Under the pieces are notes generated by a model. The model worked only from the letters and a program-made list of their open reading frames with translations, did not search any database and was not told where the DNA came from. Positions 3-26,043 of a DNA stretch of 41,310 bases are shown here, piece after piece. The stretch covers positions 1-41,310 of the forward strand of contig JAIFMY010000020.1 in assembly GCA_020048155.1 (NCBI GenBank), written 5' to 3'. This DNA comes from Bacteroidota bacterium. GTDB taxonomy: Bacteria; Bacteroidota; Bacteroidia; Bacteroidales; DYOH01. Within the stretch, counting starts at the first letter, position 1. Each line of letters starts with the position of its first letter. The translations under genes and the position numbers were made by a program.

Positions 3-2252
3 ATAGAGTTGGTCGACAAAAAACAGATGTTGCCACTTTCCTATACCTATGATTCTTTGAAACTGGTTGTGAATCTGGATAAAATGTACACCCGCAACGA
101 TACCGTCAATATTCAAATAGTGTATACTGCATATCCAAGTCGGTTTACCGATACTTTTGGTGGAGGTGCAGTTACCGATGATAATGGGTTGTATTTCATA
201 AACCCCAAAGGAAAATCCGGCGATCATATGCCGCAAATCTGGACCCAAAACGAGCCGGAGTATGCTTCTGTTTGGTTTCCTACCTTTGACTCGCCTGCGC
301 AGCGTCATACACAAGAATTGGAAATAACCGTAGACTCAAAATACCTGACTCTTTCGAACGGCAAATTGGTTAAACAGCAAAAAAATGCAAATGGTACTCG
401 TACCGATTATTGGCAACAAAATAAAACACATCCCCCTTACCTTACCATGCTTGCTGTTGGCGAATTTGCAAAAATAGACGACAAAGCTGGTAATTTGCCC
501 CTGTCATACTATGTCGAAAAACAATATGCTGCAGAAGCAAAAGCTCTTTTCGGTGCCACACCCCGCATGATAGCATTGCTTTCTAAACTTTTTGGGGTAA
601 AATATCCGTGGGATAAATATGACCAGATAGTGGTGCGCAATTTTGTATCGGGTGCCATGGAAAATACAACTGCTACCGTGTTTGGCGATTTTGTATATGC
701 CTATAAAAATGAGTATGTTGATGCCAATCAGGAAGAAATAATAGTACATGAACTTTCCCACCATTGGTTTGGCGATTTGGTTACCTGCGAAAATTGGGCA
801 AATCTGGTGCTCAACGAAGGATTTGCCAGCTATGCCGAAAATCTTTGGTATGAGTATGAATACGATGTGTATACTGCGCAATACCACCGTTTCAATGATT
901 TGCAAGACTATTTAAATGAAGCTTCATACCAACCCAAAAAAGTGCTGAGGCATGCATATGGTAGCCCCAACGATATGTTCGACGCACACTCATACCAGAA
1001 AGGATCCATATTGCTTTATCAACTTCGCAGATTGGTAGGCGATGAAGTATTTTTCGAGTCCATTAAAAGATATCTTACACAATATCAATTCAAAAGTGCA
1101 GAACTTTCTGATTTGAGAAAAATATTTGAAGAGGTATCGGGCAAAGATTTGGTGTGGTATTTTGAACAGTGGTACGAGCGCGAAGAATATCCGGAAGTAT
1201 ATACAGAATGGAATTACGACCCTGAAACGAATACTGTAATGATGAATGTAACTCAGGAAATGAGTATGACAGACAGGCCGGTATTCTATCTTCCACTGGA
1301 TGTAGCCATATACGAAGGTGGCCAAATGCGTATAGAGAAAGTGATATTAGATTCACGTAGCGAATCTTTTGAATTCAAATGCAGTAAAAAACCGGATCTG
1401 GTTTTGCTAGACCCCGATTATACCCTGGTGGGCAAACTTACCCGCAACCTTACCGAAGACGAGAGTAAATACATGCTCGAAAATGTATTGCATTTCAGGG
1501 CACAAACGGACGCAATTGATGGTCTCTCATTAATTACCCATCAGGCCGATGTGCAAAAACTGTTTTTCAAAGCACTCAAACATCCATTTTGGTTTGTACG
1601 TAGCCGGGCCATAGATGTGCTTTATTCGGTAATGGATACCTCAAACGTAAGTTTTACTGAGCAGTTGGTAAATATGGCCAAACATGATGCAAATAGCATG
1701 GTGCGCCAAAATACCCTTTCTTACCTCAGGTACCAGACTGCCGGTAGAAACGCCGATTTGTATACCTATATTCTCGACAACGATTCGTCGGCAGGTATGT
1801 TAAATACAGCACTTAACATTCTGGCTGAGATTGATATACAAAAGGCCATGCAATATGCCGTGAAATATGAAAGCAATCCTTCATTATTGTCGGGGGTGGC
1901 GCAGGTATATGCAACCAATGGCAATGCAGGACAAGGGGAGTTTTTCATAAAAGCATTGAAAGCCTCAAACTATTATGCTCAGTTTACAATTTTTAGCTAT
2001 TTTGAACAATATCTGCTAAAACAAAAACCTGAAGTAGCAGAACCCCTTACCGAAAAACTGCTCATATTGCATGCGCAGCAAAACAACGAGATGTGGGACC
2101 AAATGGTACTTACTCTGGTGTATAACCTGCTTGTAAGTTGGGAAACTATAGCCCAATCGCCCAACTACTATGAATCCACTTCGTTAAGTCCCGAACAATT
2201 GAGACAGAAAATAGATCACCTGAATAAAGTATTCTCGTCATTGAGAAACTAG
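3..2252 (+). CDS. M1 family zinc aminopeptidase, 5' end cut by the window edge
   Basis: Zinc metallopeptidase that removes N-terminal residues from peptides. The frame is open to the left edge, so the TTG at position 9 is probably not the true start; the N-terminal part and any signal peptide lie outside. Numbered from that TTG, the substrate-binding GAMEN motif is at residues 215-219. The zinc motif HELSH is at 247-251, with the third ligand Glu270 exactly 18 residues later, so the catalytic set is complete. The beta-rich N-terminal domain precedes it. After about residue 480 the protein becomes helical and HEAT-like, as in aminopeptidase-N relatives. It is the only plus-strand gene at this end and is separated from the decarboxylase operon by two hairpins. 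Family assignment is secure; substrate and location are not known. Confidence 0.93.
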   Translation: MELVDKKQMLPLSYTYDSLKLVVNLDKMYTRNDTVNIQIVYTAYPSRFTDTFGGGAVTDDNGLYFINPKGKSGDHMPQIWTQNEPEYASVWFPTFDSPAQRHTQELEITVDSKYLTLSNGKLVKQQKNANGTRTDYWQQNKTHPPYLTMLAVGEFAKIDDKAGNLPLSYYVEKQYAAEAKALFGATPRMIALLSKLFGVKYPWDKYDQIVVRNFVSGAMENTTATVFGDFVYAYKNEYVDANQEEIIVHELSHHWFGDLVTCENWANLVLNEGFASYAENLWYEYEYDVYTAQYHRFNDLQDYLNEASYQPKKVLRHAYGSPNDMFDAHSYQKGSILLYQLRRLVGDEVFFESIKRYLTQYQFKSAELSDLRKIFEEVSGKDLVWYFEQWYEREEYPEVYTEWNYDPETNTVMMNVTQEMSMTDRPVFYLPLDVAIYEGGQMRIEKVILDSRSESFEFKCSKKPDLVLLDPDYTLVGKLTRNLTEDESKYMLENVLHFRAQTDAIDGLSLITHQADVQKLFFKALKHPFWFVRSRAIDVLYSVMDTSNVSFTEQLVNMAKHDANSMVRQNTLSYLRYQTAGRNADLYTYILDNDSSAGMLNTALNILAEIDIQKAMQYAVKYESNPSLLSGVAQVYATNGNAGQGEFFIKALKASNYYAQFTIFSYFEQYLLKQKPEVAEPLTEKLLILHAQQNNEMWDQMVLTLVYNLLVSWETIAQSPNYYESTSLSPEQLRQKIDHLNKVFSSLRN

Positions 2253-22787: not shown

Positions 22788-24212
22788 TTATAGTTTTGCA
22801 GCAGTTTGAAGTTCTTTATCCGGAGATTCCTGTTCTTTTGGTTCATCGGCATGCGGGTATTTTGACAAAGCGTGCGACATCATATACCAAGTGATGCCCA
22901 CCGAAAGAAAGTCGGCGAGGGGGAACGCAATCCAAATACCATCGAGACCAATAAAATTGGGCAGAATAAGCAAAAGCGGAATGAGAATAATAACCTGACG
23001 CAATAGGGATAAAAACAGCGATGGCCATATTTTTCCCATAGCCTGAAAGAAACTGGCGCCAATGACTTGAATACCCAAAATAGGGAAACTAAATGCAATG
23101 ATGCGCATGGCGTATGTAGCCTGATTGAGTAAATCGCCATCGGAACTAAATGCAAGGGCAATTTGTGGGGCAAAAGCAAAAATGAGAACAAAGCTGCCTA
23201 GAGCCATGTATGTGGAAAAAAGCATAGAAGCTTTGATGGATTCGCGCATTCGCCCGAAATTGCGTGCCCCCAGGCTAAACCCTGCAACCGGTGTAAAGCC
23301 TTGGCTAAGACCTAGTAGCGGCATAAATGCCACCATCATAACCCGGTTTACAACACCATAAGCAGAAATGGCAATCTCACCGCCATGTGTCATCAGGAAG
23401 TGGTTGACTATAGCCACAGTAACTGCACCACTGGCCATGCGCATAAATGAAGATGCACCTATGCCAATGGCTTCTTTTATGATTTTCCAATCTGGTATCA
23501 TATCTGATAAATGTACAGTGAGGCTAGATTTTCCGCGTAGGAAATAAACCAGAACATAAATAAGAGTAAACCAAATACTTATAACCGTAGCCCAAGCTGA
23601 GCCTTTTATACCCCAGCCAAATCCGAAAATAAAGATCGGATTTAGTATTACGTTCACAATAGCACTCACAATCATCGACATCATTGCTACTTTGGCATTC
23701 CCCTCGGCCCGGATAATGCTGTTGAGAACCATTGCCATACTTAGCACCGGAGCACTCCAAAGCAACACAGAAAAATAATCGCGTGCATATTCGAATATTT
23801 TCCCAGTAGCACCAAAAGCAAACAACAACTCGTCCATAAACAAGTATGACAGAGGAGTAAGCACAATCCCCAGCACTATAACAAGCATAATGAGGTTTCC
23901 CAAGGTACGGTTTGCAGTTTTCATATTAGATGCACCCAAGCTTCGTGATATGATACTGGCACCACCCATGCCTAAAGTTTGAGCTATGCTGTTGATGATC
24001 ATATGTATAGGCATAACTACAGCCAAGCCACCTATGGCAAGCGGGCCTACGCCTTGTCCTACAAATATGGTATCTACAATGTTATAAAGCGCCATTACCA
24101 TCATGCCCACTATGGCAGGGACCGAAAGTTTCCAAATGAGTGGTTTAATGGGCATTTGTCCCAGTTGCTGGGCAGAAGTCTTCAGATTTGAATTCGATTG
24201 ATTTATTTTCAT
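22788..24212 (-). CDS. MATE family cation/drug exporter
   Basis: Multidrug and toxin extrusion transporter driven by sodium or protons. The start at 24212 (MKINQSNSNLK) is chosen because the 38 codons before it are not MATE-like; this gives 474 residues and room for 12 helices in two halves. Visible landmarks: LIWKLSVPAIVGMMVMALYN in helix 1, DTIFVGQGVGPLAIGGL in helix 2, and GFTPVAGFSLGARNFGRM at the start of the second half. The hydrophilic C-terminus is rich in Glu and Lys. No regulator lies beside it and no promoter was recognised in the 186-bp gap upstream, which also holds nothing else of note. Confidence 0.92.
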   Translation of the reverse strand: MKINQSNSNLKTSAQQLGQMPIKPLIWKLSVPAIVGMMVMALYNIVDTIFVGQGVGPLAIGGLAVVMPIHMIINSIAQTLGMGGASIISRSLGASNMKTANRTLGNLIMLVIVLGIVLTPLSYLFMDELLFAFGATGKIFEYARDYFSVLLWSAPVLSMAMVLNSIIRAEGNAKVAMMSMIVSAIVNVILNPIFIFGFGWGIKGSAWATVISIWFTLIYVLVYFLRGKSSLTVHLSDMIPDWKIIKEAIGIGASSFMRMASGAVTVAIVNHFLMTHGGEIAISAYGVVNRVMMVAFMPLLGLSQGFTPVAGFSLGARNFGRMRESIKASMLFSTYMALGSFVLIFAFAPQIALAFSSDGDLLNQATYAMRIIAFSFPILGIQVIGASFFQAMGKIWPSLFLSLLRQVIILIPLLLILPNFIGLDGIWIAFPLADFLSVGITWYMMSHALSKYPHADEPKEQESPDKELQTAAKL

Positions 24213-24398
24213 CCTAAATATTAAAAATCTTGTAAAAATAGTTTTAATGAATGGGCAAATTTGATGCTTAACATTATTTAACGGCAGAAAACAAAGCATT
24301 TGAAGCTCGTAAATATGCACTCTCAATATAAAATAGTGCTGAAATGATTGAGAAGGAACATTAGTTTTAAAAAATTAGCTTGGAGAATGAAGTTATTG

Positions 24399-24563
24399 CT
24401 ATAATGCACTAATTTCCGTTTCAGAAAGTCCTGTTTTCAAAGCTATTTGTTTAGTAAGTTTGTGCATGCTCTTCAGTATTTTGGCTAGCTTTGTAATTTT
24501 TTCTCGAGCCTCAGATTCTCTCTGCAAGGCTTTGTTTTTTAGCCTGAGTGCCTCATTCAAATA
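24399..24563 (-). other. Out-of-frame C-terminal tail of the Rpn-family gene
   Basis: Beginning right after the A8 run, the alternative frame reads YLNEALRLKNKALQRESEA and continues as a charged helix. It ends with KTGLSETEISAL before TAG at 24399-24401. This is the C-terminal coiled coil and helical tail expected for the Rpn family, so it belongs to the gene upstream. Confidence 0.75.
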
Positions 24564-25303
24564 TTTTTTTTGCGCTTATCAAACGCATTTTTGAGATCTT
24601 TTTCAGCCCAAAGTTTCTCTATCATGTTTTCATCTTGCGAAGCAAGATTTAAATGGCGGGCTATATCGCTGAATTCCGGTTCCACATCTTGCTCTTCTAT
24701 TTCAAGAATAAAATCATCGTCGGTGCGGAGATTTTGGTCGAAGAAAGAAAGAAATTTTTCCAACTTGGTTTTCCTATCAGGCTTTAATCTCTGAATCTGA
24801 AGAATATAGCAGGGGTCAGTAATAAATTGCACAAATTCTTTTTTGTGCGGAATGGTTTGCTTGGTGGTGGCATCTATGACCGTATTGTGGACCAGAATAC
24901 CCGGTGAGTCGAATTCCGGAATGTTGTACCCAAGTATATGAATAGTAATAATGGGTAGAGGTTTTTGGACTTCTCGTCCCTGCTCATCTATAAAGCTTTC
25001 GGTAAGAATATAATTTTCGCGCAAAGACCTTCTGAAACGTATGAAAGGGTCAGGAGTTTTGGATTTCTGAATTTCAATAAGTACCACCTGCTCGCCTGTT
25101 TCTGGGCTGCGTATGATGGCCTTGAAGTAGAAGCGCGGATGCGGTATTTCTGTGCGTTTATCAAGAAGTGTTTGCTTGGTGGGAATGCTTTCCACCGACA
25201 AAACTTCCTTTTCCAATATTACTTCCAATACTTTTTTGACCAGATGTTCATTATCCATCAGGTATTTGAAAGCATGATCATATAGCGGATTGATAATGCG
25301 CAT
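24557..25303 (-). CDS. Rpn/PD-(D/E)XK nuclease-family (transposase-like) protein, first reading frame
   Basis: Belongs to the Rpn/TIGR01784 group of PD-(D/E)XK proteins linked to recombination. The N-terminus NPLYDHAFKYLMDNEHLVKK and the core VVLIEIQKSKTPDPFIRFR (Glu77-x-Gln79-Lys80) are typical. The frame ends at TGA (24557-24559) directly after an A8 run (24564-24571, T8 on the plus strand). One more A would extend the protein through a further coiled-coil and helical tail to 24399, giving the usual length of about 300 residues. So the gene is a homopolymer frameshift, a phase-variable gene, or one using transcript slippage. Its neighbours (MATE exporter, nth) are unrelated. Confidence 0.85.
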   Translation of the reverse strand: MRIINPLYDHAFKYLMDNEHLVKKVLEVILEKEVLSVESIPTKQTLLDKRTEIPHPRFYFKAIIRSPETGEQVVLIEIQKSKTPDPFIRFRRSLRENYILTESFIDEQGREVQKPLPIITIHILGYNIPEFDSPGILVHNTVIDATTKQTIPHKKEFVQFITDPCYILQIQRLKPDRKTKLEKFLSFFDQNLRTDDDFILEIEEQDVEPEFSDIARHLNLASQDENMIEKLWAEKDLKNAFDKRKKNI

Positions 25304-25362: not shown

Positions 25363-26010
25363 TCAAAACTTTCCTGTTGTGTAAGCATTACAAAACGAAG
25401 CAATACCACATTCCTTGCATTTAGGGCTTCTGGCAGTACATACATACCTGCCGTGCAATATAAGCCAGTGGTGAGCCTTCGGGATGATTTCCGGTGGGAA
25501 ATGAGTGATGAGTTGTTGTTCAGCTTGCAATGGGTTTTTAGCATTTACTGTGAGTCCAATTCGGGCAGCTACTCTGAAAACATGAGTATCAACCGCCATG
25601 GCAGGTTTATTGAAAAGTACAGAAAGCAACACATTGGCAGTTTTGCGACCAACGCCGGGCAATTTCTGCAGTGAATCAATATCTTGTGGCATTTCTCCGT
25701 TAAAATCGTGCATCAGCATTTGTGCCATGCCTATCAGGTGCTTTGCCTTTGCATTGGGGTAACTGCACGAACGTATATACTCAAACACTTCGCCCTGTTC
25801 TGCTTCAGCCAGAGCTTTGGTATCCGGAAAGCGCTTAAAGAACAAAGGCGTAAGCATATTTACTCGTTTATCGGTGCATTGTGCCGATAGTATCACTGCT
25901 ACGATAAGCTGATAAGGCGATTGATAAATCAGTTCAGTTTCGGCTACCGGCATGTGAGCCTCGAAGTATTCGGTAGTTTTTGCGTAAATCTGTTTCAATT
26001 GGCTTTGCAT
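25363..26010 (-). CDS. nth: Endonuclease III, DNA glycosylase/AP lyase
   Basis: Base-excision repair enzyme that removes oxidised pyrimidines and cleaves the abasic site. From the start at 26010 (MQSQLKQIY) it has 215 residues. The helix-hairpin-helix reads LPGVGRKTANVLL with catalytic Lys123, and the catalytic Asp141 lies in AVDTHVFR. The iron-sulfur ligands are Cys191, Cys198, Cys201 and Cys207 (C-x6-C-x2-C-x5-C), all present. The longer frame from 26025 adds five residues and is less likely. It is transcribed away from arfB. Confidence 0.96.
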   Translation of the reverse strand: MQSQLKQIYAKTTEYFEAHMPVAETELIYQSPYQLIVAVILSAQCTDKRVNMLTPLFFKRFPDTKALAEAEQGEVFEYIRSCSYPNAKAKHLIGMAQMLMHDFNGEMPQDIDSLQKLPGVGRKTANVLLSVLFNKPAMAVDTHVFRVAARIGLTVNAKNPLQAEQQLITHFPPEIIPKAHHWLILHGRYVCTARSPKCKECGIASFCNAYTTGKF

Positions 26011-26043
26011 AGGGCGAAAGTACATATTTTTGAAGAAAAGGAG

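Follow-up and report, generated by a model that had tools for sequence, protein, structure and literature searches.

The split gene and its neighbourhood

The window, by which we mean the whole analysed stretch of 41,310 nucleotides from a Bacteroidales genome, carries on its minus strand, between positions 24399 and 25303, an Rpn-like gene that is parted into two reading frames. Its neighbours, judged from their translations, are a minus-strand gene at 22788-24326, which we take to encode a MATE-type efflux protein, and another at 25363-26025 (minus strand), presumably encoding endonuclease III. The parts of the split gene are as follows.

24557..25303, minus strand: Rpn-like body ORF of 248 aa, from ATG to TGA, with a nuclease-type domain and the start of a long linker helix
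24564..24571, minus strand: run of eight As (A8; T8 on the plus strand), the parting point of the body and tail frames
24557..24559, minus strand: body-frame stop codon TGA, directly after the A8 run
24558..24560, minus strand: TTG of the tail frame that shares bases with the body stop (TTGA), a candidate restart codon
24399..24572, minus strand: C-terminal tail, detached from the body by its -1 frame, of 57 codons and a stop, with the RpnS-like end TGLSETEISAL

An earlier note on this DNA had claimed that the main frame stops just after eight A residues and that the expected tail is intact in the adjoining frame; both hold, the body ending at 24557 with the residues AFDKRKKNI ahead of its stop, and the tail staying open through all of its 57 codons. 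Among 5000 mononucleotide shuffles with the composition of the tail, 63 gave a stop-free stretch of 171 nt, and the end TGLSETEISAL is similar to the C-termini of uninterrupted relatives; the rarity in the shuffles, together with this likeness, indicates that the detached stretch once served as the tail of the gene and is no chance open frame. The heptamer A AAA AAT stands ahead of the body stop in the right frame for -1 slippage. As to RNA structure downstream of the A8 run, none was found above shuffles (z of -0.28 and -0.94).

Relatives and family assignment

Relatives were found in 40 of the 295 genomes of the order (the window's genome counted), and a search of genome contigs added 11 loci, all of them MAG records labelled Draconibacterium, Rikenella, Bacteroidales, Bacteroidetes, Bacteroidia or Acetofilamentum. 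Viral contigs, searched with a profile and with an exact pattern, yielded nothing useful, and neither did plasmids or phages. The nearest intact relative is the locus L040, with 70% identity, and another relative, L009, has 69% identity over 65 residues. The ORFs flanking L040 look unlike the neighbours of the window gene, so the gene context is probably not fixed.

The assignment to the Rpn family, also made in the earlier note, is borne out by the profile TIGR01784 (Rpn), which matches four of the eight proteins in an alignment that includes the window body, and by the superposition of the tail on E. coli RpnA-S. The window body as such had no significant match in Pfam or NCBIfam, and PF12784 and PF04754 matched neither this body nor the family members scanned. 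The structure model of L040 (pLDDT 82.6) consists of a mixed alpha/beta body, a long helix (residues 225-282) and a small two-helix end; the break in the window corresponds to approximately residue 245, within the long helix. Residues 258-303 of L040 superpose on RpnA-S (7th0) with Z 8.0 and rmsd 1.3 over 46/46 residues, the next row having Z 5.3, and a Z of such size may, by the warning of the tool, reflect a common arrangement among helices. In hhalign the family tail was aligned with RpnA at a probability of 79.9 and with the PF12784-type tails of the window's own genome at 96.3, while hmmsearch of the tail against 7th0 gave a weak match (E 0.028), the top PDB match being 8vd6, 'CAP REPEAT' (E 1.6e-9). 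The detached stretch of the window is an RpnS-like C-terminal helical tail, out of frame by -1. As for the body, its fold neighbours (VIA) include McrC, EndoMS, MspJI, BamHI and Kpn2I, all weak (Z 2.9-4.8) and mixed with unrelated folds, and Foldseek returned no match at E<=0.001. PADLOC matched single members only, and the overlap of its families with the tail we take to be coiled-coil likeness.

With the Rpn family (COG5464/TIGR01784; E. coli RpnA-E), a toxin-antitoxin of the gene-within-gene type (RpnL/RpnS), the group shares a nuclease-type body with D..D..E-x-Q and a long helix followed by a small helical tail with a TGLS-like terminal motif. It differs in that the body has no match to the Rpn Pfam models and, in the window copy, in that the second catalytic Asp is missing and the tail is out of frame.

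Substitutions at conserved positions

Three substitutions in the body deserve separate mention.

25127..25129, minus strand: codon 59, where Tyr replaces the catalytic Asp (position of RpnA D63 by motif order)
25025..25027, minus strand: codon 93, Ser, where 31/31 aligned relatives have Tyr (wider set: 110 Tyr, 1 Ser, 10 gaps)
24815..24817, minus strand: codon 163, Asp, where 31/31 aligned relatives have His (wider set: 97/111 His)

At position 59 each of the 31 aligned relatives has Asp, and among the 121 other alignment rows there are 112 with Asp, one with Asn (L053) and eight with gaps. The residues of the window at the positions of RpnA D11, D63, E82 and Q84 are D9, Y59, E77 and Q79, an equivalence set by motif order, the hhalign alignment to RpnA having covered the tail only and not the body. 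According to the RpnA study (PMC5350276), these four PD-(D/E)XK catalytic residues were shown to be needed, and the E. coli variant RpnA-D63A was devoid of all three in vivo phenotypes (recombination, toxicity and SOS), its cleavage in vitro being negligible. By analogy with D63A the nuclease activity of the window copy would be lost, and the gene is probably not alive.

The window copy also deviates at Tyr122 (30/31 aligned relatives), a position where Phe occurs too in the wider set. Altogether it departs from the consensus at 8 of the 41 columns conserved at 90% or more, which places it second among 32 sequences; the most deviant one, L010 (11 of 41), is also the most distant, and L040 deviates at 0 of 39 such columns. 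In five overlapping outgroup tests the unique amino-acid changes of the window and L040 stood at 38:13, 29:12, 23:11, 22:6 and 21:5, the excess in the window being significant (p<0.05) in four of the five. An excess of nonsynonymous over synonymous changes was significant with one of the five outgroups only, and the synonymous sites are saturated between the window and L040 (pS 0.77). The window gene is, judging from its sequence, a degenerate relative of the Rpn family and not a working member of it.

The A-run in the relatives and in the source genome

The census of relatives started from 120 loci with 121 body ORFs. Of these, 101 extend to the body end and on to a stop codon, seven get as far as the body end but then leave the contig, and 13 fall short of the body end; ten of the 13 are lost to a contig edge, and the other three (L031, L058 and L059) meet a stop and were left unfollowed. 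A contig edge truncates seven of the 101 genes at the 5' end, and one duplicate (L097 of L046) is counted twice here as well as in the shuffle and run-position counts. The order search contributed 29 new loci; 80 more stretches were added, part of them chosen for short open frames, and the weakest matches of the relative search were left out. A tail was called usual-looking by an end-motif filter supplemented by reading the 13 genes that failed it: L005, L053, L055, L057 and L129 look broken, and eight look normal. By this definition 96 of the 101 genes, the window counted, have the usual tail. The window, L053 and L055 meet a stop no more than 12 residues past the matched body; in L055 the stop is an in-frame one, behind which the tail goes on in the same frame, and L053 has no recognisable tail. 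L057 and L129 contain likely frameshifts inside the tail, not at runs of six or more As. In a second set of nine genes from a phylum search eight read on and one, L167, is broken; left out of it were L161, L164, L169, L170 and L172, which are incomplete or have the break within the body, as well as L162 and L166, which repeat loci of the window's own genome. Taking both sets, the usual-looking tail is reached in 104 of the 109 other genes that can be read from the body to a stop codon.

The A8 run at the junction is not conserved among the relatives. The earlier note had suggested looking for an A8 or A9 run at this spot in relatives, and the outcome goes against it: in L040 and L009 there is no A-run at the junction, the frame continuing through an uninterrupted gene, and a run of at least eight As within -30..+60 nt of the junction occurs in eight of 110 genes, six of which read on. 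In total 43 runs of this length are present in 28 of the 110 genes. Compared with 200 synonymous shuffles of 100 genes, the tails contain 17 such runs against 17.4 expected and the bodies 16 against 36.6, and runs of at least seven and at least nine As are below expectation in both. The bodies of this Rpn branch thus hold less than half of the expected runs of at least eight As, which is consistent with a general avoidance.

From the PF12784 branch 16 stretches were taken, mainly for their short open frames; the 14 that were read for tails showed no frameshift at any A-run, and L218 and L219 run off the contig. In L217 of this branch an in-frame stop lies within the tail repeats, and the same frame goes on behind it.

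The A8 run as such is not unusual for the genome of the window, the 41-kb window alone containing seven A or T runs of at least eight. In a 290-kb sample of this genome (20 contig stretches and the window; open frames of at least 450 nt) there are 29 cases of such a run inside an open frame and more than 40 nt from its stop, counted over mechanical frames on both strands so that a single run may count more than once, against two cases of a run near a stop with another frame continuing, namely the A8 of the window and a T8 in L080. A scan for frame switches, coarse enough to miss the window's own short tail, found a homopolymer in the overlap of one of 11 candidates in these 290 kb (genome G000) and of four of 12 in 220 kb of the one-contig genome G299.

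Loss of the tail and loss of the active site

Catalytic residues could be scored in 91 of the 101 genes, nine with an uncovered catalytic column and the duplicate L097 being dropped; L057 was not scoreable, and L129 was scored and counted as tail-bearing. A gene was called tail-less by a cut-off of 10 residues, chosen after the gap between 6 and 32 had been seen. A catalytic residue is lost in all three tail-less copies and in none of the 88 others (Fisher 8e-6), or, without the window, in two of two against 0/88 (Fisher 2.5e-4); with both sets together (100 copies) the figures become 3/4 and 0/96 (Fisher 2.5e-5). Because the copies are related, these Fisher values are indicative only. The losses are D59Y in the window, D9C and D59N in L053, and E77G in L055.

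The one exception is L167 (G299:C1:2726131-2726925, minus strand), in which the same junction is broken at an A9 tract (reverse-complement index 2249), with an intact tail in the +1 frame and all four catalytic residues present; by inspection, no ATG, GTG or TTG lies near the junction of its detached tail. As homopolymer-linked frame-switch candidates are somewhat more numerous in G299 than in the genome of the window, the break in L167 is possibly a sequencing error. A search of the genus and order of G299 found a match in G299 alone. Two more genes from the second search, in which all four catalytic residues and the tail are present, are interrupted within the body, L161 (G425:C74:41339-42193) by an in-frame stop and L170 (G299:C1:2800441-2801347) by a frameshift adjoining a T6 run. 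Along with L167 they indicate that breakage needs no prior loss of the active site. Tail loss accompanies active-site loss, as a trend only; the absolute rule that the tail is lost only after the death of the nuclease, which the initial 3/3 against 0/88 had suggested, is broken by L167.

Stand-alone and tandem tails

Genes encoding the tail by itself, started with ATG, lie directly downstream of Rpn genes in three loci (L132:1705-2002, L147:1947-2253 and L057:450-687, indices on the gene strand). In the window's genome, on contig C20, a stand-alone tail gene (L002:798-1121, minus strand) lies behind a PF12784-type gene (1111-2244, minus strand). These genes consist of a short lead and an RpnS-like tail, whose repeats in some are fewer or more numerous than those of the parent. 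As side evidence, they suggest that in this phylum the tail is a module. In L144 there is a tandem pair of Rpn genes with similar tails, the second of which leaves the fetched stretch. In E. coli there are separate rpnS genes, and RpnS, the tail produced on its own, blocks RpnL, the nuclease (PMC10327210).

Interpretation of the locus

We suppose, with a probability of roughly 0.6, that the locus is an ordinary decaying Rpn copy, nuclease-dead and recently frameshifted, and not a built-in switch. The nuclease would have been inactivated by the point substitution D59Y, as the behaviour of RpnA D63A suggests; then or at about the same time (the order is what we infer), a change of length in the slippage-prone A-run at the Lys-rich junction would have put the tail out of frame, the A8 being presumably real in the organism. 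Given that the tail is an antitoxin in E. coli, one might expect selection against a live nuclease that lacks its tail, so that the tail would mostly be lost together with the nuclease. Besides the broken copies with an intact active site, it runs counter to decay that the window tail has retained its motif and is free of stops; a tail that is still stop-free points to a frameshift that is either recent or occasionally bypassed. A catalytically dead Rpn protein could also have another role. The decay reading and the four alternatives considered below are not strictly exclusive.

Homopolymer phase-variable genes, or contingency loci, have a homopolymer in the coding frame, as the window does at its break. 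Phase variation would mean here that gains and losses in the A-run during replication toggle between a body-only and a body-plus-tail protein, and an 8-nt run located at a domain junction, with the tail open in the adjoining frame, is what one would expect of it, as is the A9 break that L167, with its catalytic residues intact, shows independently at this junction. The window differs from contingency loci, however, in that its run is neither conserved nor enriched over synonymous shuffles: the nearest relatives lack it, and six of the eight runs near the junction sit in genes that read on. Moreover, a catalytic residue is missing from the window copy, and a simple on/off switch offers no account of D59Y. 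We consider this explanation unlikely. The phase switch or slippage proposed in the earlier note is supported in part: the split at A8 is retained and is joined by the A9 break in L167, while the lack of a kept run and D59Y speak against the proposal. Our literature search, of limited coverage, found no paper joining 'recombination-promoting nuclease' with 'phase variation', and none joining it with 'frameshift' and 'homopolymer'.

Indels are a typical error in A-runs, and the gene could have one open frame, still with Tyr59, if the run length in the consensus were wrong; that the assembly is in 251 contigs and that the tail has no stop would agree with this. Against it are the 29 runs inside uninterrupted long frames, as opposed to two candidate breaks, and the single homopolymer among the 11 frame-switch candidates of the same genome, and the substitutions at conserved sites would be left unexplained. 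An error of this kind is, in our opinion, also unlikely, and the broader idea of a homopolymer-prone assembly was rejected, there being no excess of breaks in the sample of its own genome.

Somewhat more doubtful is slippage of the RNA polymerase, or -1 slippage of the ribosome, on the A-run, yielding some full-length product. The heptamer A AAA AAT stands ahead of the stop in the right frame, and Baranov et al. (2005, PMC1088944) describe slippage sites with eight As in IS elements of Deinococcus and Nostoc as well as frameshifted genes rescued at A-runs. The window resembles their 'pseudo pseudogenes' in that the frame is broken at an A-run and the rest of the gene is open elsewhere. It differs from them in that its run is of 8 and not 9 nucleotides (in the same paper nine is the length avoided in many genomes, and a pattern of eight As is called non-slippery), in that the conservation of the run among homologs, taken there as a sign of purposeful slippage, is absent here, and in that the window is known from DNA alone. 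In addition, no downstream RNA structure exceeds shuffles, and L167 would need the opposite shift. For the same reasons (no stimulating structure, no conservation, the opposite direction in L167) a programmed -1 ribosomal frameshift as a designed feature was rejected.

A real split into two cistrons, with the tail restarted at TTG as a stand-alone RpnS-like protein, appears improbable. The TTGA overlap at the junction, the stand-alone tail genes behind Rpn genes (L132, L147, L057 and contig C20) and the separate rpnS genes of E. coli provide precedents for it; however, those stand-alone tail genes begin with ATG and supplement a parent gene that lies next to them, the nuclease that such a tail would hold in check lacks a catalytic residue in the window, and the detached tail of L167 has no candidate start near the junction.

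One could go further and suppose that A-runs at the Lys-rich junction of Bacteroidota Rpn genes are a recurrent mutational switch, uncoupling the nuclease from its tail (the RpnS antitoxin in E. coli), but we regard this as just as improbable. If it were true, the A8 of the window and the A9 of L167 would be two independent 'off' states, the latter with a live active site, and slippage would let cells vary the restraint of an anti-phage nuclease.

Returning to decay as the preferred reading, the single locus would be an ordinary decaying gene copy, and the by-product of the census is the more useful result. The joint loss of the tail and the active site (3/4 against 0/96), taken with the stand-alone tails, fits the toxin-antitoxin model of RpnL and RpnS in E. 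coli; plain joint decay explains the coincidence of the two losses as well. L167 offers a concrete place for asking whether a live Rpn nuclease tolerates the loss of its tail.
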